A stretch of DNA of 46,716 bases. Origin: Planctomycetia bacterium (GTDB lineage Bacteria > Planctomycetota > Planctomycetia > Pirellulales > PNKZ01). The stretch's first letter is position 1. Each line of letters starts with the position of its first letter. Below, piece after piece: positions 12,638 through 28,181 of the stretch. The stretch lies in assembly GCA_021413845.1 (NCBI GenBank), contig JAIOPP010000165.1:1-46716 (forward strand), in the 5' to 3' direction. The notes under the pieces are model-generated. The model did not search any database. It saw only the letters and a program-made list of their open reading frames with translations, and had not been told where the DNA came from. Both the position numbers and the translations under genes were made by a program.

Positions 12638-13852
12638 ATGCTGGCTAAACTGCAGACCTTTACGCTCGTCGGCATCGATGCCGTGCCGGTCGAAGTCGAG
12701 GTCGACGTCTCGGCCGGCGCGCTGCCGAAGACGATCTTAGTCGGCCTGCCCGAAGCGGCCGTGAAGGAGAGCGTACACAGAATCGAACGAGCACTGGTCA
12801 ACTCCGGCTACCAGCGGCCCGAGGATCGGATCGTCATCAATCTGGCCCCGGCCGATTTGCCGAAGCATGCCGTGTCGTTCGACTTGCCGATCGCGCTGGG
12901 GTTGCTCGCGGCGTCGGGACAAATCTCGGCCGAATGCCTGAGCGAGTTCGCAGTCGTCGGCGAGTTGGCGATGGATGGTTCCACGCGCCCGATCAAGGGC
13001 GCGCTTTCGATGGCGATCGCCGCGGCGCAGCAAAAGAATTTAATCGGCATCATCGTGCCGGCCGAGAACGCCGCCGAAGCGGCCGTCGTGGCGAAGATCG
13101 CCGTGTACCCGATCTCGAGCCTCACGCAAGCCGCGGCGTTTCTCTCGAAGCAAATCGAGATCGAACCGACCCCGACGAACCTAGACCGCTGGTTCGATTC
13201 TTACGGCACCTACGACATCGACTACGCCGACGTGCGCGGACAAGAAACGGCGAAGCGCGCGATGATGATCGCCGCGGCCGGCGCGCATAATCTGTTGATG
13301 AGCGGCCCGCCCGGTTCGGGCAAGACGATGCTCTCGAAACGGCTGCCGACGATCTTGCCGGAGCTCACGCCCGACGAATCGATCGAGACGAGCCGGATCT
13401 ATAGCGCGATGGGCTTGCTGCCCGTCGGCCAGCCGATCCTCGCGGTTCGGCCGTTTCGTAGCCCGCATCATACGATCAGCGATGCCGGCCTCGTCGGCGG
13501 TGGCTCGACCCCTTCGCCGGGAGAAATATCGCTCTCGAATCACGGCGTGTTATTTCTCGACGAGTTGCCGGAGTTTAATCGGCGTACGCTAGAAGTGTTG
13601 CGACAGCCGATGGAAGACGGCATCGTCACGATCAGTCGCGCGTTGAACAGCAGCACGTTCCCTGCGCACTTCATGCTCGTCGCGGCGCTGAACCCTTGCC
13701 CATGCGGCTACCGCAACGATGCCCGCAAGCGCTGCAACTGCTCGGGCCCGCAGGCCGAGCCCTATAAAAAGTTACGCTTTTTTTGCGGCCAAGACGCATT
13801 CTCCCTCGGTGCAATCGATGACGATTACGGGTCTTACCGTTTCGCATTGTGA
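12638..13852 (+). pseudogene. comM: comM 5' part, disrupted by element insertion
   Basis: ComM/YifB is a hexameric Mg-chelatase-like AAA+ helicase that promotes branch migration during natural transformation. The ATG at 12638 gives the canonical start [15 protein letters not shown]. The lon-protease-like N-domain is followed by a Walker [11 protein letters not shown], at about residues 224-233, then [10 protein letters not shown] and the NPCPCG zinc-binding segment. After [11 protein letters not shown] the genuine protein ends at the element junction (13764). The frame continues for 29 element-derived codons to a stop at 13852. The C-terminal AAA+ part is at 28182-28592. The host copy is probably inactive while the element is present, unless the element excises. 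Confidence 0.93.
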
Positions 13853-15500
13853 CAGTTTCCGTATGCCACCGAAGTCGCACCTCAGCACCAAGGCTATGCA
13901 GAACTTCGTTTACCACACGCGGTTCGACTAGTAGTTCTGGGGGGAGTTCGTCGCCAGGCTCTACTTGGAACGTCGCAACAACCTCCGGCAAGCAGTGTGA
14001 CACCGGCATCCGTAACGCTCTTTTTATAAAGTCCGACCACCAAGCGCTCAGAGCCTCGAACTCCGCACGGTTAAATGCACTAGGCTGCGGCAAACTAGCG
14101 ACTGATGCTTCAAGAGCCTCTAGTTCGTCACGCATCGTCGTAATGCGGCCATCTAGGCTTTGGCGAGTTCTTCGATCGCTGCAATCTAAGAGACTCTCTT
14201 CAGCGCGCCCGATACGGGCCAAAAGTTGCACGCGAGTCTGTTCCGCCGCGGCCTTCGATGCTTTGCGTCGATCGGATGCGAATACAAGCTCATCGGGTGG
14301 TTGAACGTAGAACCGCTCCAATTCGCGTATTTCTTCGCCGAGAAGCTTCAGAACCGTGGGCAAAATACGTTCCTCGCGAATCTCATAGGTTCCACATGTC
14401 CCAACTCCTGTCTTTGCTGGTGTGCTACAGCGATATACTCGATGAGGTCTACCAGTCGGCTGGCACCCGTACATAGGTTTGCCGCAATGATCGCATATCA
14501 ATACGCCGCTCAATGGATAGCCGCCATCGCGTGGTCGTCGACTTCCCTTCATCATGAAAGAGGCAAATCGAGACTGAACTCGCTCGAATAGTTCCCGATC
14601 TACGAGCGCTTCATAATGGTTCAGGTGAGATATCGTTCCGTTGTCTGTTTCCTTCCACGGTGGCGAGTCGCTCGGTCGATTCGATGCGTCGACGATGTCG
14701 CCCTTACTATCGAGGATGAAGAATTGCCCGGATTTTCGGCGGTTGTATTGAAAATCCCCGACGTACGCCCGGCGGGACAGCAACTCCTTGATTGATGCTA
14801 CGTGCCATTTGCCGCCGCGACGCCCGGGAGTTTTCTCGCGATTTAAGTCACTCGCAATCGCGTTCATGGAACGGAAACGGTTACCAAACTCGTCGAAAAT
14901 TCGGCGAACAATCGCGACGTCGCTAGCATTGCCCGGCCGAATACCGCCGCAGCCGTCGTTCTCCATTCCGTAAGGAGCAATGCCGCCGCTTCGCTTCCCC
15001 TCCATCGCTCGATTGCGACGGCTAAGAGAAACTCGGCGGCTAAGTTGGCGGCAAAAATCGTTAGCCGACCAAACGCTGACTACGAATTTGATGATCTCTC
15101 CAATGTCATTGCCGGCTCCTCCTAAATGGAAGGTTCCCTGAGCCGCGCTTACGATAACCAGCACACCTGCTTGCTTAAGGGCCAACGCGTCTCCTTGGAC
15201 TTCGGCTACGCTTGCGCGGCTAAATCGATCCATGTTGTCGACGACGATCGCTTCGATGTCCTTTTTTGAGGCGGCATCAGCGAGCATCTGACTGAATTCC
15301 GGTCGCGCTGCACCACGTTTCCATCCACTCTTACCAGGGTCAGCGTACCACCTAACGATCTTGTAGCCGTTCTCCTGTGCAAGCGACTCGATCTCGGTTC
15401 TTTGCTGTGAAATCGATTTCTCTTGGCGTTCGCGACCGTTGCTCGCTACGCCGCTGGTTGACTTTCGAAGGTATCCAGCCGCGGGTACTTTTCGTTCCAT
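13671..15500 (-). CDS. Large serine recombinase (integrase); C-terminus altered by integration
   Basis: This is the likely integrase of the element. The resolvase-type catalytic domain covers about residues 5-155 with YLRKS, nucleophile Ser14, and the DRFSR arginine motif. The Recombinase domain spans about 175-310. A zinc ribbon has Cys336, Cys339, Cys358 and Cys369, and a coiled coil covers about 410-470. The ATG at 15500 is preceded by GAGGA. Only about 579 codons lie in the element; the last 30 or so, to the stop at 13671, are antisense comM. In a circular form the frame would instead enter the right end and finish after 36 other codons (28179-28069). It is downstream of the small recombinase gene on the same strand. 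Confidence 0.93.
13756..13764. other. attL junction (left end of element)
   Basis: CGAGCCCTA here matches CGAGCGCTA at 28172-28180 with one mismatch. The comM reading frame leaves homology exactly here and resumes just after the right copy. Crossover therefore lies in the shared CGAGC or in the shared CTA. Either choice restores an open comM frame: A-E-P-Y-M-G-K or A-E-R-Y-M-G-K. Arg before Tyr is the usual residue in ComM, which slightly favours crossover in CGAGC. Confidence 0.8.
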
Positions 15501-15573
15501 TTGATTTCCTCAGTAAGTCATCGCGATGCGGTCGCTACCGCGCCGAAGACCGGCGGGTACTGCTGGCGTGAGT

Positions 15574-16317
15574 TTAGACAGGAACGCTCCGTTTTTGTTT
15601 ACGCGCGGAATCGACTTCGGCAACTAACGGACGAGCTTTCAAGAGTCGGGACACCTGCATCGGCGACCACTCGCATCCTCGCCGAGTCTCGTGCCCCTCT
15701 TTAGTCAGATGCGTAGCGATCGCTTGTAGCGACTTCCCCTCGTTTCTCAGAGATTCTATTAGGGGTATGAGGTCGACGTATGCGTCATGCGCTTTTTTCT
15801 GTCGCGTTGTGATGGCCTTAGTCCGTGCCCGCTCTAGCGCCGCCAGCCTGAGCGATTCTCGCCCGGTCCAGTGACCAACACGTGCAGAGCCAAGCAGCGT
15901 GCCCCTTGCCTTTGCGGCCGCCAATGCCGCCTTTGTTCTTTCGCTTATCCGTCGAGCCTCGTCCTCAGCAACCGCAGCCAAGATATGGATTGTCAGGCGG
16001 TTCGCGGTCGGATTGTCGCACGCAACGAATTCGACGCCCGAGTTCAAGAGCGCCGCGGTGAACTCAACATTCCTCGCAAGCCTATCCAACTTCGCTACGA
16101 CTAGGACTGCCTTTGCGCGCTTTGCATGTGCCAAGGCGCGGCTGAGTTGAGGACGATCAGCGAGCTTACCAGATTCAACTTCGACGTAGACGCCAGCAAT
16201 CGGAAGCGAGGATTGCGAGGCATACGACCGAACGGATGCGGCTTGCGCTTCAAGGCCGAGCCCCGAATCGCCTTGCTGCTTCGTGCTGACGCGATAATAG
16301 GCAATAAGGGACTTCAT
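15574..16317 (-). CDS. Small serine recombinase (resolvase/invertase family)
   Basis: A 247-residue serine recombinase with the catalytic domain at about 1-140: YYRVS with Ser11, KLDRLARN, and AEDEARRISERTKAAL at the start of the long E helix. The C-terminal 80 residues are longer than the helix-turn-helix of Tn3-type resolvases and end in a recombinase-like DNA-binding segment (LRNEGKSLQAIATHL...). It lies 73 bases upstream of the large recombinase on the same strand and is probably co-transcribed. It may resolve, invert or help direct the large recombinase; its substrate site is not known. No good Shine-Dalgarno is seen before the ATG at 16317. Confidence 0.9.
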   Translation of the reverse strand: MKSLIAYYRVSTKQQGDSGLGLEAQAASVRSYASQSSLPIAGVYVEVESGKLADRPQLSRALAHAKRAKAVLVVAKLDRLARNVEFTAALLNSGVEFVACDNPTANRLTIHILAAVAEDEARRISERTKAALAAAKARGTLLGSARVGHWTGRESLRLAALERARTKAITTRQKKAHDAYVDLIPLIESLRNEGKSLQAIATHLTKEGHETRRGCEWSPMQVSRLLKARPLVAEVDSARKQKRSVPV

Positions 16318-16361
16318 AACGCAGAGCCCAAAAGGACGCGGTTGACCACCTAGGGGGTATT

Positions 16362-16399
16362 GTAACGTTTCAGTAGACGGACGACAACTGAAGCGTTAC
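16362..16399. repeat. 13-bp inverted repeat upstream of the small recombinase
   Basis: GTAACGTTTCAGT at 16362-16374 is repeated in inverse as ACTGAAGCGTTAC at 16387-16399, with 12 of 13 positions pairing and a 12-base spacer. It is in the gap just before the recombinase start at 16317. It could be an operator, a recombination sub-site or a transcript hairpin; no T tract follows on either strand, so an intrinsic terminator is unlikely. Confidence 0.6.
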
Positions 16400-16402
16400 G
16401 GG

Positions 16403-16696
16403 CTATTTCTGCCGTCGTTTTGATCTGCGAGTAAGAATTCTCAGCGCCGCGGCTCGGCGATTGGCCTGCGCGCGATCATCCCGATGAACTCTCGAATCAA
16501 GTCCCGGGCTGCCAATAAGTTTGACAACGAGCTTTTTGATGTCCGGAGGTAGATCGCGGAGACGCCGAGCTTCGGTTTCATCGTCAGGAGTGAAATTCAA
16601 CTCATGGCCCTCGATGCTCTTATGCGCCTTCGACCGGGATCGCTTTCGTCTGAGCAGGCTCTTTAGCTCGCCGCAGATTGGCTCTAGCTGTAGCAA
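16403..16696 (-). CDS. Hypothetical basic protein, uncertain start
   Basis: A frame of up to 97 codons rich in Arg and Lys (RRKRSRSKAHK near the start, RRAAALRILTRRSKRRQK at the end). It overlaps the end of the preceding hypothetical gene by 77 bases and has only a TTG start, so it may be read by re-initiation or be the shifted continuation of that gene. No family is recognised. The element-like orientation and the position just upstream of the recombinase genes are its only support. Confidence 0.35.
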   Translation of the reverse strand: MLQLEPICGELKSLLRRKRSRSKAHKSIEGHELNFTPDDETEARRLRDLPPDIKKLVVKLIGSPGLDSRVHRDDRAQANRRAAALRILTRRSKRRQK

Positions 16697-16970
16697 CTGC
16701 GATCACACGGAATCCTTCGATCCGTTGCGAGGTAGTTGCCTCAGCGGAATTGACAAGCTGAAAGATCATGTCGATTAGTTGGCATCCGTGCAAATCCGGC
16801 ACAACACGACCGGTTGAAATCGCGGTTTGAAGCATCAACAAGTCGCGCACGCCAGCTTGGGTCCAATCAAATAATGTCCCCTTTCCCGTACGCAGAGCGC
16901 AGGGATTTTCGCGGTCGCCTCGCGCCTCGAACGTCGCGCGTTTTCGTTTCCGCCTGCTAATGTTAGGCAT
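16620..16970 (-). CDS. Hypothetical protein
   Basis: A 116-residue protein starting MPNISRRKRKR, with a basic N-terminus and then a mostly helical body (DWTQAGVRDLLMLQTAIS, CQLIDMIFQLVNSAEATT). No family is recognised. It lies between a zinc-finger gene and the recombinase genes on the same strand, so it is probably part of the element's recombination or regulation module. The opening MPNISRRK resembles the MPPIPRRK and MPAIPKFK openings of the two zinc-finger genes, which may reflect a common upstream sequence. Confidence 0.55.
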   Translation of the reverse strand: MPNISRRKRKRATFEARGDRENPCALRTGKGTLFDWTQAGVRDLLMLQTAISTGRVVPDLHGCQLIDMIFQLVNSAEATTSQRIEGFRVIAVATARANLRRAKEPAQTKAIPVEGA

Positions 16971-17111
16971 ATCCGCGAATTATATCCGAGGCGACTCTAA
17001 AAAGGCTTTTGCTATCCGTCCAAAGCCATAGCGCCCGTTTGCAAGTATGTTCGCGTTGACGCTATGCGAGGTCTTACCTTCGCCTGCGGATCTGGAAGCC
17101 CTCGCGAACCG

Positions 17112-17489
17112 TCACCGCGATTTCTTCCGACGTCGATATGCCGACTGTTTGCAGCCGCTACTGCAATATCTCTTGTCGCCTCGAATCAGCTCATCGCCAG
17201 GGTGGTAGCTAGGCCACCCTGAAATTGGATACCCGCATTCCTCGCAAGCGCGCTCGTGAGGCCCGTTCTTTGAAAACTTTGCCCGTCGAATGCGTTGGAG
17301 CTTTCGAGCCTCGCTACGCGCAGCAACAAATGCTGCGACTCGGCATTCTTTGCAGCAGTACTGTTGCTTCGAGTGTCGAATGAGAAATCGTGCGCGACAG
17401 GCAACACAGACTCCGAATTCAGGCATGGGGGCTTTCGTCACGGCGGTGTTCGTTACCGTCGTCGGTTTCCTTCTCGGGATCGGTGGCAT
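17112..17489 (-). CDS. Double treble-clef zinc-finger protein (intact copy)
   Basis: I place the start at the ATG at 17489, with GGGAG at Shine-Dalgarno distance; the longer frame to 17627 uses a TTG and reads through relic sequence. The 125-residue protein holds two CxxC...CxxxC fingers: Cys28/Cys31 with Cys45/Cys49, and Cys82/Cys85 with Cys109/Cys113. Each ends in a basic Arg/Lys helix (CRVAAFVAAR, CKQSAYRRRKKSR). Such fingers bind DNA or RNA in small mobile-element proteins, so a regulator or recombination accessory role is inferred. A frameshifted paralogue lies at 26903-27254. Confidence 0.72.
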   Translation of the reverse strand: MPPIPRRKPTTVTNTAVTKAPMPEFGVCVACRARFLIRHSKQQYCCKECRVAAFVAARSEARKLQRIRRAKFSKNGPHERACEECGYPISGWPSYHPGDELIRGDKRYCSSGCKQSAYRRRKKSR

Positions 17490-17538
17490 CGGTAGAAACT
17501 CCCGCAAAAAATCGCCGCTTCGGTCGGAATGTCTTGCC

Positions 17539-17720
17539 CTATTTCGTCGCGAGTCGGACAGGTCCGTTACGAATGTCGGTTGAGGACTTGGCGATCCGGA
17601 GAATTTGAAGGGCCGCCGTAATACCAATACTCGAAATCCACTCGACTTTGTTGCGAAGGCACTGATCGCAATGGCGACCGCCGCGTTACGTTTCGTGGTG
17701 TCGACTACTTGGGCCTTCGT
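17539..17720 (-). pseudogene. Relic of the 3' end of the third recombinase-like gene
   Basis: On the minus strand this stretch aligns with the end of the gene at 27332-28069. Shared runs are GAAACGTAACGCG, CGCAACAA and TTTCGAGTATTGG (TTTTCGAGCATTGG on the right), with nearly the same spacing (61 against 63 bases between the outer two runs). In one frame it still encodes LRNKVEWISSIG, against LRNNGETFSSIG in the intact gene. A stop and at least one frameshift break it. The zinc-finger gene follows in both places, so a two-gene module was duplicated and this copy decayed. The remainder of the gap up to 17935 holds no gene I can support. Confidence 0.6.
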
Positions 17721-17935
17721 GACGGCCCGCGATACGGACTCCGGCGGGCGGTCCTATATACTCGTGCTTTTAGTAGCCAAGCGAATTGATGCCCAATTAC
17801 CCGCTGCTACAACGATCGCGCAGTATGAGCGATTCTTATTGCGAGCAAACTGCTTGGAATCTGGCTCTCATCGATAAAGGGTGACTGGCAATTCCCCTCC
17901 TTTCAGCCATCGATCGCCACTGATATATTGGGGGC

Positions 17936-19288
17936 ATGACACCTCCAAGATTAAGCGAAATTCGAGTACTATGCGACGAAGCCGCAGACAAAGCCCTGTT
18001 TTTGCGGATCAAGCGGCTATCTCCGTTCCTGAGTCAGATTCCGGATTCGAATGTCGTGGTGTATCCGGCTCGCTTGGTCGGCGAACAGTTCGCGTTGATC
18101 GAGCCGCTAATGATCGACGACCGACCAGACTTCATTCTACTGCACGATAGGAAGCCGCTCCTTGTCGTAGAGCTTACAGAGCACGGTTACACGGGCGACA
18201 ACCCGCTGCAACGTTTCACTCGACTTGCTGCTGCCGCAGAAAATGGTGTTGCGGTTATCTACTTCGGTCCCTTCGCGCGGGTCCGCGACGACGAACTAGA
18301 TCTAGTCGATGATCCCGAAACACTTAGCAAGCGACGTGTGAATACTGATCTGTTCCGCGGTATGTATCGGCTCGGGCAAACTCATTCGGTCCCGGTTGCC
18401 GCAGTTGAGTGGATAACGGGTAGCAATGGCAAGCCGCTGAAGCTTCCGCTTTCACTTCCGGATGCGGACATCTCACGAGTGTTCGGCCGCCTGGTTTCGC
18501 GAATGAGCACGCTGCTCGAAGACGCTTGGCATCGGTCGCAGAACACGTCGCGGGTTCATCTTGAAGCAGATGTCAACGCAATCGACGAGGATCTAAGAGC
18601 TACTTTCGCGGTGTCAAATGTTCGTGGTAGTCAAACGAAGTTGATTTTACCGGGCTCAACGACGTTGAATTTCTTGCGAAATCCATCAACTATCCTTAGT
18701 TCGATCACGCGACAGGGGTATTTTTACAAAGACAAGCCGGAGCGTTTGCTTGCTCTCCAATGCATTCTTGAAACCGATATCCAGTTCATCAAGTCCGGCT
18801 CGGTTATCACGCCTGTTAGCGATAAAGAGGCCTTGGTAACTCGCCTTCTCGAAGCCGTTCCCGGGTTAGCGAATGGATGTGCCTTCTACTACACCGGATA
18901 TAAGTGGCGCAGCGATCCGCATTGCGGGGTGCTTGTAAACTTCGACTACCTTCAAGCTCGGGAACTCACCGAAGCGCGGGTTCTCGACCGGCAACGGCCC
19001 CTGATTCTCTTCTATCCGAGAATTCACTTGAGGCCGACGTCTCCAAACGTCGTGCGAGTGCAGTCGCGGCTCAGCAATTTCGGTCAGGCCGCAAATCCAT
19101 TTAGGCAACTTTTTGCTGAACGGTACGGCACGGCTAGCGCCGATACGCGTGCCACGGACTTTCTAAACCGAACGTCCGATCACACTGCCAAATGGACTGA
19201 CTCTACTAAGCAGGCGCGTATTTTTCAGCGTTACTGCGATCTGATCGTACTGCAAGATGCCGTGATACTCGGGCATCATCGAACTTAG
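17936..19288 (+). CDS. Putative restriction endonuclease, variant PD-(D/E)XK, subunit A
   Basis: A 450-residue protein in the element's restriction-modification locus. Residues 60-112 fit the core of a PD-(D/E)XK nuclease: RPDFILLH with Asp65, then a strand LLVVELTEHG with Glu79, then TGDNPLQRF and a strand GVAVIYF. The usual Lys two residues after Glu is Thr81. The remaining 330 residues show no domain I know. The stop is two bases before the next gene, so the two are co-transcribed. The ATG has a poor Shine-Dalgarno, while TATATT lies seven bases upstream (17924-17929), which would suit a leaderless mRNA. Nuclease activity is inferred from motif and neighbourhood. Confidence 0.55.
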   Translation: MTPPRLSEIRVLCDEAADKALFLRIKRLSPFLSQIPDSNVVVYPARLVGEQFALIEPLMIDDRPDFILLHDRKPLLVVELTEHGYTGDNPLQRFTRLAAAAENGVAVIYFGPFARVRDDELDLVDDPETLSKRRVNTDLFRGMYRLGQTHSVPVAAVEWITGSNGKPLKLPLSLPDADISRVFGRLVSRMSTLLEDAWHRSQNTSRVHLEADVNAIDEDLRATFAVSNVRGSQTKLILPGSTTLNFLRNPSTILSSITRQGYFYKDKPERLLALQCILETDIQFIKSGSVITPVSDKEALVTRLLEAVPGLANGCAFYYTGYKWRSDPHCGVLVNFDYLQARELTEARVLDRQRPLILFYPRIHLRPTSPNVVRVQSRLSNFGQAANPFRQLFAERYGTASADTRATDFLNRTSDHTAKWTDSTKQARIFQRYCDLIVLQDAVILGHHRT

Positions 19289-19290
19289 CT

Positions 19291-19788
19291 ATGCCGACAC
19301 TCGAAGATGAAGCGTATCAGAGGCTCGTCGACCGCCTTAATGAACGACGCATAACGGTAATTAGCGCTCATCCGCCAAGCGGAAAGGCATACGATTCCGA
19401 GCTTGTTCGAATTCCGGCTAAGGAAAGGAACTCAGGCCGTTATCACGCGGACATTATCTTTGTAATCGATACCGTGCTGTTCATATGCGAACTCAAGGGC
19501 AAAAGCAGCGAGTCGACTTCCGATGTCGCGAAGCTTCGAGGGATAATTGCAGACTATACGGTAGCAGAGCTAGTCTCGTTCATTCGGAAGCGCACGAACG
19601 TCGCGACAGTGAATTGGGCCGCCATCACTAAGGTCGTCGGCCTCATTGGAGTGGTAGTGGGTGACGCTTCCTTACCCGACGACATCGTATCGATAGTTGC
19701 GAGTGCGCCAGCCGAGTTCGAGGTCGATGTGGGCAATACGCTTCCTGACGCCTCGGGACTACGAGAGGCACTCGCTAGGGTTTTCTAA
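19291..19788 (+). CDS. Putative PD-(D/E)XK nuclease, subunit B
   Basis: A 165-residue protein with a clean PD-(D/E)XK core: HADIIFV with Asp54, then FICELKGK with Glu67 and Lys69, then an alpha-helical and strand region. It follows the larger nuclease candidate by two bases and its last 14 bases overlap the end of the second methyltransferase, tail to tail. A small catalytic subunit paired with a larger partner, next to two methylases, resembles heterodimeric type II enzymes with asymmetric sites (BbvCI is a known example of two nuclease and two methylase genes). The pairing is inference. Confidence 0.62.
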   Translation: MPTLEDEAYQRLVDRLNERRITVISAHPPSGKAYDSELVRIPAKERNSGRYHADIIFVIDTVLFICELKGKSSESTSDVAKLRGIIADYTVAELVSFIRKRTNVATVNWAAITKVVGLIGVVVGDASLPDDIVSIVASAPAEFEVDVGNTLPDASGLREALARVF

Positions 19789-20965
19789 AGACAACGATGT
19801 AATCGTGTTTGGTCTGAATTTCCGTATCGGCCGACTTGTGATAAAGGGCTTGAGTTCCTGAAGTCTCACGGCGAAGAATTTCTTCGACCTTGAATCCGGC
19901 GTCACTGGCCGATTGAGCAAATCGCGAGAAGATGTTGAGCTTCTTCTTAGAAAGTGTCGAGTCGGAATTAATGGCGACACCTCTTGCACCTGAAGCGCTT
20001 GCCCGGAACATCTCCTTCCAAACAAGATCGCAGTCGGCGAGGTACTTCTCCGCATCGTTCGGATTGCTAGTCTTAAAGCCATCCCGAATCTCTTCGCCAG
20101 CAATCACTCGACGATCTGCACCAAGCCATTCGAGTTCTAGCCGTAGGACATCGCTGCTGTACTTATAAAGCGCGAAATACGGGGGGTGCCAAAAGATCGT
20201 GCGCATGTCAGAGATTTGCGACGACATTTTCACAGCCGACACGCATTTCAAAACCACCGAGTTCGCCATTTCCGGAAGTTGGGCCTGCGCAGTTTGGATA
20301 GTGGAGTATTCCTTTACAAATAGGTCAAAGGGAAGGCGCGGTGTTTTCTGTTTATCTAGGAATAACCTTCCTGTTTTACTTGAAGCCTTCGACGATTTTC
20401 TTATTGTTCGCAGCCAAGCTAATAAAAGTATCCTGCGCTCCGCGGATTCGGGAATCGCTTCTATCGCTGCTCGCAGCACCGCATGTTGCTCCGCGGCCTC
20501 GTTGCTAAACCATCGGTCGATGTTTTGCATAGCCGCATCGCGAATTGCTGCGACGTCGTGCGGAGTCGCTTTAATCGCGACAGCTTTCGTTCTATTCGTA
20601 AATAAATCGGCTTCGAGCTTAAACGTCTGCTGCAACCGATCCTTCGCGAATTTTTGAATTCCGCCTAGGAGGCGATAGGTCTTATCTGCATCTGCTCGCT
20701 CTACCTTAACTTGACTGATCAATAGGCTAATCGGGTTAACGTCCAAGCCGACGGAGTCACGGCCCGCCAGTGACGATTCCAATAAGGTCGTCCCGCTACC
20801 GCACATAATGTCAACGACGGGTCCTTCGGCACCTAGACCCCATAGCTTCTCAAGAAGAATGCGAGTCGATGTCGGGGGGTATTTCCCGAAGTATCGGAAT
20901 ATGCTGTGGGTAAGATATCGCTGCGCGGCGTTAGAACTGCTGTCGACTAGAGCGGTATGTTTCAT
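19775..20965 (-). CDS. DNA amino-methyltransferase (M2)
   Basis: A 396-residue adenine-N6 or cytosine-N4 DNA methyltransferase. The start is the ATG at 20965, which overlaps the stop of the upstream methylase gene as ATGA; the longer frame beyond it overlaps M1 and is not coding. FRYFGKYPP (23-31) precedes the SAM-binding motif I DIMCGSGT (52-59) and DVNP (75-78). The catalytic motif IV is HPPY (260-263), with His for the usual Asn/Asp/Ser. The C-terminus YIVVFRKP matches that of M1, so the two are paralogues. The role is to protect host DNA from the adjacent putative nucleases, each methylase presumably marking one strand of an asymmetric site. Confidence 0.85.
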   Translation of the reverse strand: MKHTALVDSSSNAAQRYLTHSIFRYFGKYPPTSTRILLEKLWGLGAEGPVVDIMCGSGTTLLESSLAGRDSVGLDVNPISLLISQVKVERADADKTYRLLGGIQKFAKDRLQQTFKLEADLFTNRTKAVAIKATPHDVAAIRDAAMQNIDRWFSNEAAEQHAVLRAAIEAIPESAERRILLLAWLRTIRKSSKASSKTGRLFLDKQKTPRLPFDLFVKEYSTIQTAQAQLPEMANSVVLKCVSAVKMSSQISDMRTIFWHPPYFALYKYSSDVLRLELEWLGADRRVIAGEEIRDGFKTSNPNDAEKYLADCDLVWKEMFRASASGARGVAINSDSTLSKKKLNIFSRFAQSASDAGFKVEEILRRETSGTQALYHKSADTEIQTKHDYIVVFRKP

Positions 20966-22164
20966 GGCTTCCTTGCGATTACAATATGTTGTGTCCGCAT
21001 GCGCCGGTTTAGCGTTCGGCCAGTATTGTTGTTTAGGACGTGTTCCGCGTAGCGAACGACCTCGAAGCCAGTGTCTTCGCAGAATTCGCGAGTTATAGTG
21101 CCGACCGGTATGCGGACGGTATCGACCTGACCATCTCCGACAACAGCCGCGAAATGACCGCCACGCTTCAATACAGAAAATGCCTGGCGAACGATCTTGC
21201 ACCAGCCAACTAGATACTTCTGCACGCCATTGGGCTCGTGCAAATAACTTCCCCTATGCCTAAGCTCGCTTTTCCAGATGGTCTTATGATCAACTCCAAG
21301 GAAGGCGAGCTGAAGTTGAGTCGACTCACTAAAAGCGGTGTTCGACATATATGGCGGATGAGCCACGACTAGGCCAATGGCCTTATCCGCAGGATCGAAC
21401 TCAATCGCGTTTTGCCGACGTACTATCCGCTCGAATTTTCGAGTTCCCGCGTCCCTCGCAAACGCGTCGTGCAGTTCTATGTTTTTCTGCAGTGTTTTCG
21501 AGAACAGTTCTGCTACTGGCCAGACCTTCTTTTTTTCTCGGTCAAATTCGATGTTCATCTTCTTGACATTGCACAACGAGACACGTCGCAATATCGCGAA
21601 GAATGCCGTCTGTAAAAAATCCTTGATTTCGGGCGATTCAACTTTCTCGATAGCTCGGAAAAGTTGTGACAGGTCCTGCCACGCATCCGCCGTGAAGAAC
21701 TTCGAATTCTCACCCAGATTGATCAGGTCTGCCTTTTTCGAAGCGGGCTTGCTGAGCAGCGGACGATTCGTCTCCGGAAGTTGGGCGATGATTTCACTCG
21801 CGACCTTCTTCAATTGAGTCGGCACGCATACCGCTGAAGCGGTTCTGGCGACCGTCATAGCGACCGGGTTCACGTCATAGCCGATAATTCTCTTTCGACC
21901 GGCCAAGATCGCCTCGGTCAGTACGGTGCCCCCACCGCACATGGGATCGAGTATCGAATCCTTGGGACTGGAATACTCTTCGATGATGGCCCGCGCAATC
22001 TGCGGTGGAAACTTGCCAATATATCGAAAGTACCCGTGAGGACCTTCTTGAGTTTCGACGCCATGCGGCACTTCCCACAGTTCGCGGGCACCGGAAAAGG
22101 TTTGCTTAATCCGCAACTCCGCTAATATGTCGGCGGATTTCTCGGAGATTGAGTTAGCTGCCAT
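20962..22164 (-). CDS. DNA amino-methyltransferase (M1)
   Basis: A 400-residue paralogue of M2. I choose the ATG at 22164 because TAGGAGA sits six bases upstream; an in-frame ATG at 22215 has no such site. FRYIGKFPP (46-54) precedes motif I DPMCGGGT (73-80) and DVNP (97-100); motif IV is HPPY (269-272). The protein ends HIVIARKP, like M2. Both share the order motif I then motif IV, with about 185-200 residues between, which may carry target recognition. It is the first gene of the M1-M2 operon, with a near-consensus promoter at 22225-22254. Confidence 0.87.
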   Translation of the reverse strand: MAANSISEKSADILAELRIKQTFSGARELWEVPHGVETQEGPHGYFRYIGKFPPQIARAIIEEYSSPKDSILDPMCGGGTVLTEAILAGRKRIIGYDVNPVAMTVARTASAVCVPTQLKKVASEIIAQLPETNRPLLSKPASKKADLINLGENSKFFTADAWQDLSQLFRAIEKVESPEIKDFLQTAFFAILRRVSLCNVKKMNIEFDREKKKVWPVAELFSKTLQKNIELHDAFARDAGTRKFERIVRRQNAIEFDPADKAIGLVVAHPPYMSNTAFSESTQLQLAFLGVDHKTIWKSELRHRGSYLHEPNGVQKYLVGWCKIVRQAFSVLKRGGHFAAVVGDGQVDTVRIPVGTITREFCEDTGFEVVRYAEHVLNNNTGRTLNRRMRTQHIVIARKP

Positions 22165-22224
22165 GCACTCTCCTAGGTGGTCTCGACCGTCGATAACCCA
22201 TTGGTGGGAAATCATTTAGGACTA

Positions 22225-22254: not shown

Positions 22255-22278
22255 GCCGACGGAGGTCTGGGTAGTGTC

Positions 22279-22615: not shown

Positions 22616-22664
22616 GGCCAGCCGTTTCGACCGTTTCAGTCGCCGCGACACAGGGGCATTCGCG

Positions 22665-23381
22665 ATGGATTTCAGCATCGAGGGCGGGCATCACGTTTCG
22701 CCGCTTGATACAGCCGAACCATCGCTATCGCAGTTACAGAAACTGTCGGGCCTTTTCGCCGCTCTATCGAGTGCTTTGGAGCGTGATCTTCGTGAGAACA
22801 GTCAGTGGTCAGTCGCAGAGGTTCTTCAAGACTTCATGCGAGCCTGGAAATTTCTGCGAGAGATCGGCCTCGACGGCGGCAGGGGGACGGTAACGCCGAT
22901 CGGGTGTGAACCACGGGAAATGCTGCACGCGCTTCGAGAGATTCGCGACTTCATGGGGATCTACGAGTCGCAGATAGGAAACAGCAACGCTTGGAGCATC
23001 CGACCAGGGGCTCACGCAGGGCGCGTTTCTAGTTCGTTGTTCATCGCCGTAGCCGAAAGATGGACCGTTGCTATCGCAGCACTTGCCAAAAGACAAGTTG
23101 AAAAAGCCGCTGCTGCTAGTTCAATCGTCGATGCAGAATCCGACGATCTAATGACGTTGTATGAATTATCCAAGCTCGTCTTCGTTTCGTCGAAAGCCCT
23201 TCGCAACAGAATGATACTGAGCGAGCCAGCGATAAAGGGCGGCGGTCGTGGACGCAAAGCTAAATGGCATTACCTCAAAGAGAAAACCGCCATCGAGACC
23301 GCTTATCACCTCAAATTGCCGGATCTCTCCGAAGCTCGGAAGCAATTGTCCCGAGATGGCGATGCGTCCAGTGCGGGATAG
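22665..23381 (+). CDS. Hypothetical protein with possible DNA-binding C-terminus
   Basis: A 238-residue protein of unknown family. The N-terminal 150 residues are mainly helical. Residues 163-200 (LMTLYELSKLVFVSSKALRNR, broken here for length, then a G/R/K-rich loop and KWHYLKEKT) look like a winged helix-turn-helix with a basic wing. The stop codon lies inside the first of a set of ACTATCCCG repeats, and a palindrome precedes the gene. That layout suits a regulator or replication/partition protein acting on those repeats; this is inference, not homology. Confidence 0.6.
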   Translation: MDFSIEGGHHVSPLDTAEPSLSQLQKLSGLFAALSSALERDLRENSQWSVAEVLQDFMRAWKFLREIGLDGGRGTVTPIGCEPREMLHALREIRDFMGIYESQIGNSNAWSIRPGAHAGRVSSSLFIAVAERWTVAIAALAKRQVEKAAAASSIVDAESDDLMTLYELSKLVFVSSKALRNRMILSEPAIKGGGRGRKAKWHYLKEKTAIETAYHLKLPDLSEARKQLSRDGDASSAG

Positions 23382-23434
23382 TTTGGCAATAAACTATCCC
23401 GATACTATCCCGCGAACATCGTAGAACTATCCCG
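23374..23434. repeat. Helically phased ACTATCCCG repeats with one inverted copy
   Basis: ACTATCCCG occurs at 23393, 23404 and 23426, that is 11 and 22 bases apart, placing all three on the same face of the helix. An inverted copy, CGGGATAGT, at 23374-23382 forms a perfect inverted repeat (GGGATAGTTT / AAACTATCCC, six-base spacer) with the first. This is the look of an iteron or operator array. It overlaps the end of the 238-residue gene. Confidence 0.65.
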
Positions 23435-23523
23435 AATGGTCGCAAACCATTGACGTGACGAAACTTCAAGAAAGTTTCTCTGCCGCATCTACGATGTCCC
23501 TGGCGACGCAAAGACCGTCGCCA
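23435..23523. repeat. Three consecutive short hairpins
   Basis: AATGGT/ACCATT (23435-23451), GAAACTT/AAGTTTC (23460-23478) and TGGCGACG/CGTCGCCA (23501-23523) are perfect inverted repeats with five-, five- and seven-base loops, in a row directly after the phased repeats. The last one abuts a full Shine-Dalgarno sequence. Together with the next hairpin they form a strongly structured 260-base region. Confidence 0.55.
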
Positions 23524-23535
23524 AGGAGGTTCGTC

Positions 23536-23565
23536 ATGAGAAGGGCCGAGTGCGCCGAACAATGA
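23536..23565 (+). CDS. Possible nine-residue leader peptide
   Basis: ATG plus eight codons and TGA (MRRAECAEQ) follow a perfect AAGGAGGT (23523-23530) at five bases. The Shine-Dalgarno begins at the foot of an eight-base-pair hairpin. A translated leader inside a structured RNA is one reading; a gene truncated by a deletion is another. The peptide is too short to support by sequence alone. Confidence 0.3.
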   Translation: MRRAECAEQ

Positions 23566-23583
23566 GCGGCGCGAGCCATAAAT

Positions 23584-23632
23584 AAAAAACGCCCGCAGTT
23601 GTCCGACTTAATCGGGAGGGCAACTGCGGGCG
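23584..23632 (-). terminator. Intrinsic terminator, minus strand
   Basis: CGCCCGCAGTTG (23590-23601) pairs perfectly with CAACTGCGGGCG (23621-23632) across a 19-base loop. On the minus strand the stem is followed by six T (23589-23584), which makes a strong terminator for transcription coming from the right. On the plus strand there is no T tract. Confidence 0.7.
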
Positions 23633-23642
23633 CTCAGCGTTT

Positions 23643-23709
23643 GGGCCTGCGCTGGCGGGTAGCGCAGCCTTTTATCCAGCGATAACGGCTTCGATCCCCG
23701 GCAGCTCCA
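23643..23709 (+). other. tRNA-like relic (3' half resembles tRNA-Lys or tmRNA end)
   Basis: TTTTATCCAGCGATAACGG followed by cTTCGATCCCCG and CAGCTCCA resembles the anticodon 3' half, T arm and acceptor 3' strand of a tRNA with UUU anticodon; CAGCTCCA is also the usual tmRNA 3' end. GGGCCTG at 23643-23649 could pair with CAGCTCC at six of seven positions, counting one G-U. The D arm and 5' anticodon strand do not fold, and the whole is short by several bases. It is probably a degenerate tRNA or an old attachment-site fragment. Confidence 0.3.
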
Positions 23710-23713
23710 ATGT

Positions 23714-23839
23714 TTATTTTGTAGGTCGTTTCGCGGCACGACGCAAGACTTCACGCGACCATGTGACCGGCTTTGCGTCGTCGGCCGCCGCCGCAGCATC
23801 GATCGCGGCTTCCTCTTTGGCCGATAACGGCAGCTTCAT
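23714..23839 (-). CDS. Small hypothetical protein, possibly with a lost N-terminus
   Basis: From the ATG at 23839 the frame encodes 41 residues: MKLPLSAKEEAAIDAAA, then ADDAKPVTWSREVLRRAAKR and PTK. The pattern (a strand, an AAIDAAA helix, then TWSREVLRRAAKR) resembles short ribbon-helix-helix or mobilisation-accessory proteins. Upstream, the same frame still reads sensibly (PPKPPEERRTDA) up to a TGA, and another frame offers a GTG start (VVENTALSTTAQ), so a frameshift near 23870 may have detached the original start. A minus-strand terminator lies 80 bases downstream. Confidence 0.4.
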   Translation of the reverse strand: MKLPLSAKEEAAIDAAAAADDAKPVTWSREVLRRAAKRPTK

Positions 23840-24077
23840 GGCATCCGTTCGCCGTTCTTCCGGCGGCTTGGGCGGTTGTGCTCAAGGCGGTGTTTTCTAC
23901 CACTCAGGTGACACGAACGATGTGATCATTCTCCGTGAAAACCGCTAATCGCGATGTTCTCGGTGCAGCCCTCGCCCCCGTCGAAGCCATCGAATCTGCG
24001 GTACGGATTCCGTTTCGCCCGATTATTCGATTTTGTTACAATTCTGGCGTGTCGATTAAAGGCCCAAGGATGATTTT

Positions 24078-24713
24078 ATGAACGCCGAAACGGTCGAACC
24101 CATCAACGTGCCGGTGGTTCAAACCAAGCCCGAGCCGGAGACGCCGATTCCCGTTGCCATGCCAGCCGTCATTCCGCAAGTAGCGGTGAAACGATTCGAT
24201 TGGACTGAGTTTCGGTCATGGACGACGCTAGTCATTGCAGTCGTCATCGCGGCATTGACTATCGCCCAAAGTCCTGCTTCCTCTTGGTTCAAACCGCGAC
24301 TTTCATATACCCAAAACCGGTTCGGAACGACCCATACGGGAACCTGCTTCATCGGGACGACTTGCTATCTTTTCAATGATTCCAGCTACGTTTCCGCAAA
24401 GAACGTGGTTGTGCGATTGGATTCGCATAGAGAACTAGAATTCGATATCAACGTGCCGCATAAGATTCAGAAGCAGGGGCAAAACGGCTACGCAATTGAA
24501 ATCCCTTCGATTCCGCCAGGCGGGGTAGTGCACCTTTTTGCGGCGACCGCATGGGAAGATGACTCCGGTCTAGCGATCGCCCCCGATGTAACCGCGATCT
24601 ATTCCGACGCCGGGATTGGCATTGAAAACTACAATTCTGACAGCTATCCGAGTCCGTGGCGAATTCCTGACCTGAAGCCGGCCACACCGAAGATTGCGAA
24701 AGTAATTCCGTAA
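24078..24713 (+). CDS. Hypothetical single-pass membrane protein
   Basis: A 211-residue protein. The first 48 residues are Pro/Val/Glu-rich and probably cytoplasmic, a single transmembrane helix covers about 48-66 (TTLVIAVVIAALTIAQS), and a 140-residue beta-rich part would lie outside. AAGGA precedes the ATG. No family is recognised. Membrane proteins with a soluble outer part occur in some defence loci, but nothing here ties it to the restriction genes. Confidence 0.65.
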   Translation: MNAETVEPINVPVVQTKPEPETPIPVAMPAVIPQVAVKRFDWTEFRSWTTLVIAVVIAALTIAQSPASSWFKPRLSYTQNRFGTTHTGTCFIGTTCYLFNDSSYVSAKNVVVRLDSHRELEFDINVPHKIQKQGQNGYAIEIPSIPPGGVVHLFAATAWEDDSGLAIAPDVTAIYSDAGIGIENYNSDSYPSPWRIPDLKPATPKIAKVIP

Positions 24714-24753
24714 GCGTGGCAACGAGCTAACTCCGCAGAAAGAGATTCATCGA

Positions 24754-25098
24754 ATGTTCGTGATCACGTTTTGTTTCGACGGTGGCCCGTTCGACGGTGG
24801 TAAGGCGGATACCTTAGGAGGCGACAGCTCACTCGTTGAAAAGTGGTACAACCTTACGAATGGCGGGGCCGTCGGACAGCGTTTCACCGTCACCAAGGCA
24901 TCGACCAGTAACTACCCGATCGCTAGCAGATACGCCGCTACGCTGGGTAATAATGACACAGAGTTCAAAGACTACGAATATGAGATCGTCCGCAGAGAGG
25001 TAGAGCCAACAGAAACCATAGAAGGCGAAACTGACCCATACAAAAAAGACGTGAATCGGGAAACATTTTATTGCGAGCTCTCAAGGGAACATCGCTAA
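24754..25098 (+). CDS. Hypothetical protein
   Basis: A 114-residue protein starting FVITFCFDGGPFDGG. It is followed by a beta-rich central part and an acidic tail (EPTETIEGETDPYKKD). No family is recognised. It starts 40 bases after the membrane protein gene on the same strand, so co-transcription is likely. A weak AGAAAGAGA purine run precedes the ATG. Confidence 0.55.
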   Translation: MFVITFCFDGGPFDGGKADTLGGDSSLVEKWYNLTNGGAVGQRFTVTKASTSNYPIASRYAATLGNNDTEFKDYEYEIVRREVEPTETIEGETDPYKKDVNRETFYCELSREHR

Positions 25099-25528
25099 AA
25101 GACTCCGTCATCGGTAAGGCTATCGCCGCGGAAGTAGTCCTCGATCGAGATCGTGGACTTCAACAGCTCCGCCATGAGCACGCGTCGCGTGCTGACGGGA
25201 ATGGTCAGCTCTTTCGACTACTCCTCGATGCTCGTAGACACTTCGTTGGCCGAGGTTCACAACACCGGCGCCATGGTCAGATAGACGAAGGACAGCGTCG
25301 AATTCGCTGAGGTGATCGAGGGGAGGAGGTGGAAGAAGTTTACCCGCCGCTTCTTCAGTGGAACCGTCGTATCTCTCGCCGATCGACGGATTCTACCGCC
25401 GTATCATTCGCATTGCCGTTGGGGGAATTACACCCTTTCTGCGCAAATCTGAGAACCCGATAATGGGCATCGACGACCCGCGGATACCGGCGGCGGCCCG
25501 CAAGATGATCGAAAGCAAGGGATGAAGA
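25099..25528. other. 430-base stretch without a supported gene
   Basis: No frame here has a good start site and protein-like composition over its length. A plus-strand frame at about 25438-25524 (NPIMGIDDPRIPAAARKMIE) ends cleanly just before the next gene and looks like the tail of a lost coding sequence. I see no hairpin with a T tract. Confidence 0.4.
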
Positions 25529-26482
25529 ATGGCCAATCGCAAGTATCTTTCAGAGTTCACGCTGAATGCCTACACCCAGTTCGGTGCCATTGTTCAACAG
25601 GCCGATCTTGCCCTGCTCAAGGACGACAATCGCTTTCAGAAGCGCCCATGCCACATCTACATGATCACTCGTGCCCCTCGACTTTCGATCGATATTGCAT
25701 CGATGACCATGGACGACCACACGATCAAGGGGCAGTTTTTAGTTCAGAAAAAGAATAATTTCGTTCCGCGTCCATTTTCAATTCAACACACATTTGGAAC
25801 GAAGCGATTAACCTTCGAATCCGACTTTCCACATACGCGGCTGATCAGCCGAGACGAGAACGGAGAGCTGTTCGGCGATTGGAAGGTTTCGATGGCAATT
25901 CGCGAATGGAAATTGGACGTTGGCGACCTTCTGGATCTCGAAGTGATGTACGTCGGCCAGTCCTACGGTGTCGATGGTGCTCGCACCGCGCCCGACAGAC
26001 TCCAGGCGCACGAGACGTTGCAAGCGATCTACGCTGAGACCGTGGCCAAGTCACCGGATCAAGACGTCTGGCTGGTTCTTCAGCACTTCGAAGAGCAATT
26101 GATGCACGAGATGAACGGAAGCTACGATGAATTCGAAAAGACAGAAGAGGAAGACATCGATCATTCGAGCAAGATCTACGATGCGACGTTCACCGAGCAG
26201 CAGACGATCAACTACGCCGAGGCCGGGATGATTCGGTACTTCCAACCGGAATTCAACCGCATCTACAAAGACTCGTTCCCGAATCCGGCACACTCTACGT
26301 ACAGCCAGTGCTACGATCTAGACATTCACATGCTGGCCGTTTCGATTTGCACCGACTGCATTCGAAGCCGCATATGGTCGCCGACGGTTGCCCCATCTGA
26401 CAAGCACCTCGCGCAATTCGATTTGAGGACGTCTGAGCAGCGACGAGGAATTTTCGATTACTTTGGCGACGGTTGGAAGTGA
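25529..26482 (+). CDS. GIY-YIG-like nuclease-fold protein
   Basis: A 317-residue protein. The region 137-250 shows a GIY-YIG-like order: MYVGQS with Tyr141 and Gly143, Arg157 and His161 in DRLQAHETLQ, then after a 60-residue insert YAEAGMIRYFQPEFN with Glu231 and Asn243. The first GIY half is not well conserved. The N-terminal 130 residues are beta-rich and probably a recognition or binding domain. The segment KDSFPNPAHSTYSQCYDLD after the core looks strongly constrained. GIY-YIG proteins cut or nick DNA, so a role in defence or element maintenance is plausible but inferred. Confidence 0.5.
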   Translation: MANRKYLSEFTLNAYTQFGAIVQQADLALLKDDNRFQKRPCHIYMITRAPRLSIDIASMTMDDHTIKGQFLVQKKNNFVPRPFSIQHTFGTKRLTFESDFPHTRLISRDENGELFGDWKVSMAIREWKLDVGDLLDLEVMYVGQSYGVDGARTAPDRLQAHETLQAIYAETVAKSPDQDVWLVLQHFEEQLMHEMNGSYDEFEKTEEEDIDHSSKIYDATFTEQQTINYAEAGMIRYFQPEFNRIYKDSFPNPAHSTYSQCYDLDIHMLAVSICTDCIRSRIWSPTVAPSDKHLAQFDLRTSEQRRGIFDYFGDGWK

Positions 26483-26609
26483 AACGCGCTGCATGTTACG
26501 GTCAGCCCGTGTCTGCCGCGCTCGAACGCGTGATCGTCACTCTACTATCGAAGGTCGATGGACAAGGCCCTTCGGCATGTGCGCATTTTCGGCGAATTAA
26601 GGCTCAGAA

Positions 26610-26885
26610 ATGGCAGAGAACGATGATTTCGTCACTTTTGGCGATTGTCGCATCTCGCCGCGGGCAATCGAGGCTTGCCGGACACACCACGGAATCGATA
26701 GTCGCAAGGCGGTCGCCGAATTGGCCCACCAAGCCCTGAAGACTTACGACGAGCATTTGAAGCCCAAAACGGCGTTTCAGGTCGAGAGGCTACTCTATGA
26801 CGGGGATAGGGTTCTTTTCGGCATCATGATTTCGCTGGAAGCCGGGAAGCTTAAGGTCGTTTTGAGCGACGCAAGCGAAGGTTAG
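26610..26885 (+). CDS. Hypothetical protein
   Basis: A 91-residue protein: MAENDDFVTFGDCRISPRA, then a helix AVAELAHQALKTYDEHL and two beta strands (RVLFGIMISL, LKVVLSD). The start is preceded by a purine-rich stretch. I do not recognise a family. It is the last plus-strand gene before the right-end minus-strand module. Confidence 0.5.
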   Translation: MAENDDFVTFGDCRISPRAIEACRTHHGIDSRKAVAELAHQALKTYDEHLKPKTAFQVERLLYDGDRVLFGIMISLEAGKLKVVLSDASEG

Positions 26886-26902
26886 ACGCGGCGACTGCTC
26901 AA

Positions 26903-27254
26903 TCAATCGATGAGCCGCCGACGCCACGCTGCCTGCCTACACTTTGCGGAGCAGAAAATCGCGTCGCGTCTAAGTGGTCGAAAATTTTTTCCGCAGTACC
27001 AACAGCCTGTTGAACCATTGAGTGGATCGTCGGCGGTCGGTTTTTGGCTTTTCTCGCGTTCCAGTGTTCTTCGCTGCACGAACGCTGACACGCGGCATTC
27101 CGCTTGGCAATACTTCTGTGCGGGGTGCCTGAGAAGAAATCGATTCCCGGCAATACTGGCAATTGCCAAACGCGAACTTTGAATTGCAGGCGGTTTCTGC
27201 TTGCGAGCGGTGCTCCGTTACGGTTACCGGTTTAAATTTGGGAATCGCTGGCAT
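26903..27254 (-). pseudogene. Double zinc-finger gene, frameshifted paralogue
   Basis: From the ATG at 27254, with GGAGG upstream, the frame encodes MPAIPKFKPVTVT and continues to NCQYCR, like the intact copy's MPPIPRRKPTTVT and VCVACR. Near 27140-27146 the homology jumps by one base to the frame that encodes RFLLRHPAQKYCQAECR and a second finger CWYCG...CSAKCRQAAWRRR, ending at 26903. Removing a single base restores a protein matching the intact copy residue for residue across the join (CR-x-RFLIRHSKQQYCCKECR). It is either a true frameshift or a sequencing error. Confidence 0.75.
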
Positions 27255-27331
27255 CGATAGAATTCCTCCGGAAATACTGCGACATCGATCGCTTTTTTAT
27301 GCCCTATCTCGCCCACGCGGCTCCGCGGCTG

Positions 27332-28069
27332 TTACGGCTTTCGGAAAAGATGCCGACGCACTTCAGAGGCCGATAGACCGACAATACTACCAATGCTCGA
27401 AAACGTCTCGCCGTTGTTGCGGAGATATCGGATTGCAACATCTTGTCGTCGCGTTACGTTTCGCGGTTTAGGACCGGGTGGACGCCCCTCAAAAATGGCG
27501 TTCTGTATTCCACGGGACGTCTTGCGCCCATGAAGCTCCTGTAATGAAGCCGAAGGGGACTCGACCACTGCGACGACAACTGTGGAAACGATTTGTCCAA
27601 GTAAGTCGAAGTCTTCCCCCGACGGCTCGGTGAACGGATCGCAGCCGCCATTCGATGCTTCCGGACGTAGAAGACGCCCGATATCGGGATAACAGATAAT
27701 GGCTTTGTGACGCAGCGCATGCGCTACCGCACGGTATAGATCTGGACGGCCTGTGCTGATCCGGCCCTGATACGGCTTGTCGTTTCCGACGATCGCAACG
27801 AGCCTTCCGCCTGCCTCGCGAATTGCTCTGCGAGCCGCGCACTGCTGACGGAATAGACTTCCGTTTTTTATCTGCGACAGTTCTGAAACACGAATACCCA
27901 GGACGACGTTTTTCGTCGGGCTTTGTCGAAGTGCTTCTGGTAGATGCAGGATGCGGCTCCGAAAGAACGGAGCGGCCCCGTTTATAATAGGCATGTCACT
28001 TTCCCCTATTGCGGCCTGCGATCGATCGGTCCCGTCAAGAACTTGGATCGCAGGCCGTGTTAATCGCAT
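27332..28069 (-). CDS. Divergent serine-recombinase-like protein
   Basis: A 245-residue protein starting at the ATG at 28069. Residues 53-120 follow a resolvase catalytic domain: VVLGIRVSELSQ with Ser62 in the R-V-S position, SLFRQQCAARRAIREAGG, and DIGRLLRPEA in place of LDRLARN. The C-terminus (GPKPRNVTRRQDVAIRYLR, then FSSIGSIVGLSASEVRRHL) is a helix-turn-helix of the resolvase kind. The core is worn enough that catalysis is doubtful; a directionality or accessory factor is a good alternative. In the circular element its ATG would overlap the stop of the large recombinase, so the two are natural operon partners. Confidence 0.65.
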   Translation of the reverse strand: MRLTRPAIQVLDGTDRSQAAIGESDMPIINGAAPFFRSRILHLPEALRQSPTKNVVLGIRVSELSQIKNGSLFRQQCAARRAIREAGGRLVAIVGNDKPYQGRISTGRPDLYRAVAHALRHKAIICYPDIGRLLRPEASNGGCDPFTEPSGEDFDLLGQIVSTVVVAVVESPSASLQELHGRKTSRGIQNAIFEGRPPGPKPRNVTRRQDVAIRYLRNNGETFSSIGSIVGLSASEVRRHLFRKP

Positions 28070-28070
28070 C

Positions 28071-28179
28071 AAACGGCCTTCGTCAGGGCTGAAGACTCAA
28101 ACACTCGATCGACGCGCGCGAGTAACTCGTCGCTAACTCTTGGCGGTAAGTTTGTGGCGCGTTCGGTAGATCGAGCGCT
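28071..28179 (-). pseudogene. Severed 3' tail of the large serine recombinase gene
   Basis: When the element ends are joined at the att core, the large recombinase frame passes Tyr579 and continues here for 36 codons (SARSTERATNLPPR, VSDELLARVDRVFES, SALTKAV) to a TGA at 28071-28069, whose last base is the first base of the next gene's ATG. The clean stop/start overlap and the sensible protein composition show that this is the recombinase's own C-terminus, cut off by integration. Confidence 0.72.
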
Positions 28180-28180: not shown

Positions 28181-28181
28181 C

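Follow-up and report, generated by a model that had tools for sequence, protein, structure and literature searches.

What becomes of an integrase gene when the attachment site of its element lies inside it? The question is raised by a 14.4-kb element integrated in comM on contig JAIOPP010000165.1 of a Planctomycetia bacterium (assembly GCA_021413845.1); "the window" denotes the whole stretch of DNA analyzed, 46,716 nucleotides. The element encodes a large serine recombinase (LSR), the reading frame of which crosses the left junction into antisense comM. The comparisons below make it likely that attP, the attachment site of the circular form, lies within the integrase gene (int) as part of a compact module, and that integration would matter more for the next gene of the circle (here gene 3) than for the integrase tail.

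The integrase frame has two alternative ends

When the flanks of the element are joined at the AG dinucleotide present at both junctions (Table 1), they give a single uninterrupted, in-frame comM with conserved sequence. The GC content of the element is 0.539, against 0.622 and 0.606 in the flanks. Matches to comM were found in 37 of the 40 genomes searched, the window's own included. Of 29 loci fetched from relatives (L003–L031), one is interrupted and one is cut by a contig end; in the 27 readable ones the residue after the junction Gln is Ile (16) or Val (11), and a stricter motif recovers 11 of the 27. A core within CGAGC (13756/28172) would encode Ala at this position. The AG core was preferred because of this residue conservation and because of attP symmetry: among the same-dinucleotide pairs scanned, AG ranks first in the symmetry of the attP arms, which is modest in the window (14 of 25 positions; the next pair reaches 12). 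In another genome, G018, whose assembly is otherwise good, a contig begins exactly at the comM attB Gln codon (L143 position 1; L144 position 7174) and a second contig runs through the site, perhaps a sign of a mixture of occupied and empty sites. A split comM in this genome was discarded as a candidate, as the overlapping contig ends give an unbroken gene.

The first-pass annotation, made from this DNA alone, had reported that the LSR frame passes into antisense comM and stops at 13671, and that joining the two ends of the element extends it to a TGA at 28071–28069. Both observations hold with corrected details. The crossover is best placed a few bases from the ends implied earlier; the extension has 33 codons including the stop and not 36; the element-encoded tail reads RARPTERATNLPPR rather than SARSTERATNLPPR; and the foreign tail acquired on integration counts 26 residues instead of 30. 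The two forms share 583 residues and end in either 32 circle-encoded residues (615 aa in total) or 26 comM-antisense residues (609 aa). All three Pfam domains of the LSR (PF00239, PF07508 and PF13408) exceed their curated cut-offs and stay whole, the exchange being limited to the C-terminal tail. In the circle, the sequence TGATG (28071–28067) holds the stop codon of the LSR and, starting on its last base at 28069, the ATG of gene 3. This overlap, also noted in the first pass, is real, and the geometry confirms that integration parts the LSR from its downstream partner.

Table 1. Positions of the element, its junctions and the genes discussed, in window coordinates
Feature	Positions	Strand	Description	Basis
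Integrated element	13754..28169		14.4 kb, in comM	flank joining, GC content
attL core dinucleotide AG	13752..13753			comM conservation and attP symmetry
attR core dinucleotide AG	28168..28169			comM conservation and attP symmetry
LSR, integrated form	13671..15500	-	609 aa; last 26 residues are antisense comM	Pfam Resolvase, Recombinase, Zn_ribbon_recom
LSR 3' end in circular form	28069..28167	-	element-encoded, 32 residues and TGA	
Small serine recombinase	15574..16317	-	upstream of LSR, same strand	Pfam Resolvase
Gene 3	27332..28069	-	small-serine-recombinase-like, diverged, C-terminal helix-turn-helix; ATG overlaps circle-form LSR stop	
comM 5' part (Mg-chelatase-like)	12638..13753	+	broken off at Gln codon	open reading frame
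comM 3' part	28170..28592	+		flank joining

The layout recurs at four kinds of target

Relatives of the LSR were sought in 396 genomes of the order, in 392 of the phylum and in the families of genomes G260 (241), G319 (119) and G149 (43), as well as in viral contigs, phage records and plasmid records; as no more than the top few candidates of each genome are scored in the genome searches, clade members may be missed. The order sample yielded four clade members besides the window's own genome. Viral contigs added one LSR relative, the IMG/VR contig L114, and gave no match with the G260 LSR or with gene 3 as query. The phylum sample contained no new clade member, as judged by identity and tree, its best two matches (G630 and G698) falling outside the clade in the tree. 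At the thresholds set, the three families returned known members only, other matches being at outgroup level, and at E 1e-20 neither the phage nor the plasmid records contained an LSR relative. Five genome-contig loci with 23–27% identity were not used. The clade thus consists of the window, four further intact members (G260, G149, L114 and G319) and a degraded one, G212 (L070), which belongs to it by identity and was left out of the intact set for its internal stop codons.

The LSRs of the clade are about 40% identical to each other, and their targets differ. In a ten-row tree the five intact LSRs cluster at 100/100 support; G260 forms the earliest branch, and the comM insertions of G260 and the window do not pair as sisters, the inner supports being just 85–89%. 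In all five, the LSR frame has no stop before the junction and runs into target DNA, which is of four kinds. The LSR of G260, 38–42% identical to that of the window, belongs to a separate element of 14.7 kb that occupies the same Gln codon of comM. Its attP forms a strong inverted repeat around an AA core, which ranks first with 20 of 25 positions (18 for the next pair), and its LSR ends in 20 comM-antisense residues when integrated and in 64 other residues in the circle. The 8-kb element of G149 lies inside a DUF1559 gene, recognized by Pfam on both halves; here the LSR tail has five residues (TWSSG) in the circle and 89 in the integrated form. Joining the flanks restores the target gene in frame in G149 and G260, as it does in the window. 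In L114 the frame enters an antisense phage portal gene (Pfam), and in G319 an antisense group II intron (Rfam RF02005). In the three members with both ends known, the junction lies 12, 16 and 12 residues after an RLG motif. A small serine recombinase precedes the LSR in L114 too, with 32% identity between this gene and that of the window. As a separate observation, the L114 element (positions 1–4173) sits in a portal gene adjoining a terminase gene, and is thus a mobile element inside a phage remnant.

Because all five intact members, at four kinds of target, have the layout, the position of attP inside int is probably ancestral to the clade and older than the present targets. The view of the first-pass annotation that the arrangement read in the circle is native to the element is supported by the two tails of G260 at the same codon, by the three further members and by the recurring overlaps described below. 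Within the clade, no homolog has the comM-antisense tail as its normal C-terminus and none ends well before the junction; such a tail is present in G260 because that copy itself sits in comM.

The circle tails themselves, of 32 (window), 64 (G260) and 5 (G149) residues, are hardly conserved. The window and G260 tails share the motif RVxRxFxxSAL, with a Smith–Waterman score of 35 that was reached by 24 of 5,000 shuffles. A circle tail conserved across the clade was considered and is ruled out by the five residues of G149.

The integrase stop overlaps the next start in three of four reconstructed circles

Four circles could be reconstructed: those of the window, G260, G149 and G006. The LSR of the last falls outside the clade and is only distantly related to that of the window (E 4e-8, with 27% identity across 147 residues); its element also lies in comM, at a codon other than the window/G260 site. 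In three of the four circles, the stop codon of the LSR and the next gene's start share bases: 1 nt in the window, 4 nt (GTGA) in G149 and 8 nt in G006, where the overlap ATGGGTAA is located inside a palindromic attP. The G006 element spans L145 604–3739 and L146 2207–3021, and its attP, a 16-bp palindrome, takes in the stop codon of the LSR together with the next gene's start. In this order, comM has been struck by at least two LSR lineages.

How readily would such overlaps arise by chance? The first-pass annotation held the TGATG overlap to be unlikely by chance. Control trials used 194 long open reading frames (ORFs) from the window and 11 fetched loci, with readings begun 15–180 nt upstream in another frame. 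An overlap of exactly 1 nt with the first ATG or GTG occurred in 153 of 21,340 trials (0.7%); any overlap of 1–8 nt occurred in 1,886 of 21,340 (8.8%), and a looser count gave 1,620 of 10,920 (14.8%), so the argument is weaker than claimed. The window overlap is moderately improbable and by itself proves little. Its recurrence matters more: at 8.8–14.8% each, the binomial chance of three overlaps in four circles is 0.003–0.012.

The partner genes differ between elements

The genes that follow the LSR in the circles are not the same from one element to another. Gene 3 appears to be a divergent member of the small serine recombinases, with a helix-turn-helix (HTH) at its C-terminus. Matches to it occur in 7 of 395 other genomes, and several of the matching proteins can themselves be taken for divergent small serine recombinases. 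Its pairwise BLASTP match to the small recombinase of the same element is weak (E 2e-5, 28 residues), and its HTH scores below the Pfam cut-offs. A single-sequence AlphaFold model of gene 3 had a mean predicted local distance difference test (pLDDT) score of 40.1 and was not used for a fold search. In G260 the partner is a 156-aa protein without a family match, which by eye we take to be MerR-like; in G149 it is a short protein before a terminase gene; and in G006 it is an HTH protein with its best Pfam match just below cut-off. No significant match links gene 3 to the G260 partner, nor, among the ORFs compared, to the G149 partner; with the G006 partner it shows a weak match in the HTH region (E 0.022 for one comparison).

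A search for promoter-like sequences returned none in 27900–28600 around attR, where 0.2 would be expected. It returned one in 13500–16700, before the small recombinase; as 1.6 are expected there, this match says little.

A compact integrase–attP module as the likely explanation

We regard it as likely that the window holds a serine-integrase element with attP inside its own integrase gene, forming a compact module. In int, attP comes shortly after the last of the conserved motifs. The sequence shows that integration exchanges the last 32 residues of the integrase for target-encoded ones, here 26 antisense-comM residues, and cuts the LSR from the next gene, whose start overlaps the LSR stop in the circle. 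The layout may persist because int and attP travel together between elements with different cargo. This idea fits the observation that the window and G260 elements share the LSR as their sole common gene (BLASTP E 1e-4; one further match lies within the LSR gene in another frame), while the G260 cargo is phage-satellite-like and that of the window includes two DNA methyltransferases. The integrase would presumably tolerate many tails, with the swap mostly a by-product. The partner, on the other hand, would be coupled to the translation and perhaps the transcription of int in the circle only, and would lose its upstream region on integration. We infer that this effect on the partner is a likelier functional consequence than the tail swap, and that the operon change, which integration brings about consistently and in which the partner loses upstream coding sequence and any transcript coming from it, might regulate something.

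In a bolder version, which we consider unlikely, serine-integrase elements of this phylum would repeatedly have placed attP exactly at the stop/start of a coupled int and next gene, in at least two distant LSR lineages, with integration acting as a latch that cuts off the downstream genes and gives the integrase a new tail. The int operon would then be whole in the circle only, and the genes cut off would be recombinase-like, HTH-encoding or packaging genes. A clade with attP built into int, in which integration rewires the int operon, would provide a state switch encoded in DNA and needing no regulator, with two forms that are directly comparable.

Several points weigh against the module and the coupling of the partner. 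The excised circle was not found: an attP probe of the window's own assembly matches the two half-sites only. A model of the LSR built from two sequences puts the junction about 12 residues past the last strand, which at a mean pLDDT of 41.9 is poor and gives just a weak hint that the tail lies beyond that strand. The G260 partner does not overlap the LSR: its start lies 51 nt past the LSR stop and is preceded by AAGGAG. As to the overlaps, the control trials are not independent of each other and include shadow ORFs, the partner start codons are predicted (with at least one further GTG upstream in the G149 frame), and the G006 circle combines two contigs from a draft assembly that is 75% complete. 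The G149 core was picked for restoring the target gene, and symmetry ranks it second (12 of 25 positions versus 14). L114 and G319 show one junction only, that of G319 being placed just by its overlap with the intron. Finally, the motif common to the window and G260 circle tails suggests that the tail may matter in some members.

Alternative readings

Integrase gene and attP adjoin in most integrating elements, and here they might merely overlap, with neither the tail nor the coupling having any effect. This alternative coincides in part with the module explanation and differs from it only on the consequence for the partner gene. LSRs outside the clade (about 30% identity; 15 distinct loci) have other C-termini, and four from the phylum (L118, L119, L120 and L121), chosen for their tRNA-like tails (e.g. 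GVGFEPTTSGL) and not counted among the five, overlap a tRNA gene in 4 of 4 cases, with 3' ends that enter or cross it in antisense orientation. These LSRs apparently target tRNA genes, so an overlap of integrase and target is not rare there, and overlaps of 1–8 nt appear by chance in 9–15% of trials. Against this stand the presence of the layout in 5 of 5 intact clade members at about 40% identity and in different targets, and the overlapping stop and start in three of four reconstructed circles. We consider an absence of function improbable, if worth keeping in mind.

The first-pass annotation had suggested that the two forms, integrating and integrated, could be the states of a built-in switch, with gene 3 as the directionality factor. 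In such a model the protein would be the integrase with its circle tail, and would have another activity or stability with the comM-antisense tail. The directionality of serine integrases is usually ascribed to separate directionality factors, and small DNA-binding directionality factors often carry an HTH, as gene 3 and the G006 partner both do. The motif shared by two circle tails speaks for a switch too, and the integrated tails of the two comM insertions, in the same antisense frame, look alignable by eye. There is also a precedent in phage Mx8, whose integrase changes in activity and specificity when its 3' end is replaced (PMC6070905, PMC4701971). The proposed switch is nevertheless not supported. 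Since the circle tails have 32, 64 and 5 residues and are similar only between the window and G260, two of the three, and since the junction lies about 12 residues past the last strand of the poor LSR model, a tail-based switch is less likely than the compact module. The integrated tails in other targets are unrelated, and gene 3 lacks the matches to the G260 and G149 partners described above. Moreover, if a directionality factor were produced chiefly in the circle, its timing would be wrong for excision, barring a promoter of its own. We rate a C-terminal switch as unlikely.

A wrong joining of ends or an artefact of the frame, conceivable in a 167-contig assembly, is hardly credible given that comM is restored with conserved sequence and that the same arrangement is found in the single-contig genomes G260 and G149, the former contradicting it directly.

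Annotated integrase C-termini of integrated copies may be host-encoded. Anyone mining genomes for LSRs to be used as tools has to read the element-encoded tail at the opposite end of the element.

Cargo of the elements

In the window, the cargo includes two DNA methyltransferases. They are type II-like and lie in 17936–22215 beside proteins of 450 and 165 aa, neither of which has a Pfam or PADLOC match; the region is possibly a defence or restriction-modification locus. Near opposite ends of the element there are cysteine-rich genes that look similar by eye (17112–17627 and 26903–27254). The left one matches an HNH endonuclease family, and the right copy is broken-looking and spread over two frames.

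The G260 element (L068 14132–20000 and L081 1–8816) carries primase, large terminase and major head genes and resembles a capsid-forming phage satellite. By eye, some of its ORFs also resemble AbiEi/AbiEii and a TIR protein.

Comparison with known systems

An exchange of the integrase C-terminus is already in print, both for streptococcal integrative and conjugative elements (ICEs) in rumA and for Myxococcus phage Mx8. In the rumA ICEs the attachment site lies inside a serine integrase gene, and the 3' ends of target and integrase are swapped on integration (PMC4701971); as in the window, the integrated and excised forms therefore differ in the integrase C-terminus. Unlike the window element, these are conjugative elements of Firmicutes with rumA as main target and a few secondary sites, and the parts of that report available to us mention no coupled downstream partner gene (PMC4701971). 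Its authors compare their system with Mx8 (PMC4701971), which has attP within int and an integrase that is altered, not inactive, after modification (PMC6070905, PMC4701971). Mx8 int likewise gains a new 3' end on integration (PMC6070905). However, it encodes a tyrosine integrase in which 112 residues are replaced by 13 (PMC4701971), and the change was demonstrated experimentally.

The archaeal SSV-type suicidal integrases also have the att site within the integrase gene, and a compact int–att module has been proposed to favor exchange (PMC8371274). In these archaeal elements a tyrosine recombinase is split into two pseudogenes and its catalytic part is separated (PMC8371274), in contrast to the serine recombinase of the window, which exchanges a tail only. 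Phages with integration-dependent immunity offer another parallel: attP lies inside a phage gene, and integration alters the C-terminus of its product and thereby regulation (PMC8092301, PMC6109161). In these phages the gene is that of the repressor rather than the LSR, and the integrases of the systems in PMC8092301 are tyrosine recombinases.

As for elements of planctomycetes in comM, the best 10 of 270 literature matches held nothing relevant, a weak negative as "comm" also matches "community". Among the matches listed from the openly licensed literature, in the parts seen, no stop/start-coupled partner and no case from this phylum is reported. Compared with the systems above, what appears to be new is the clade-wide placement of attP inside int, together with a recurrent partner gene coupled to the integrase through its stop and start codons.

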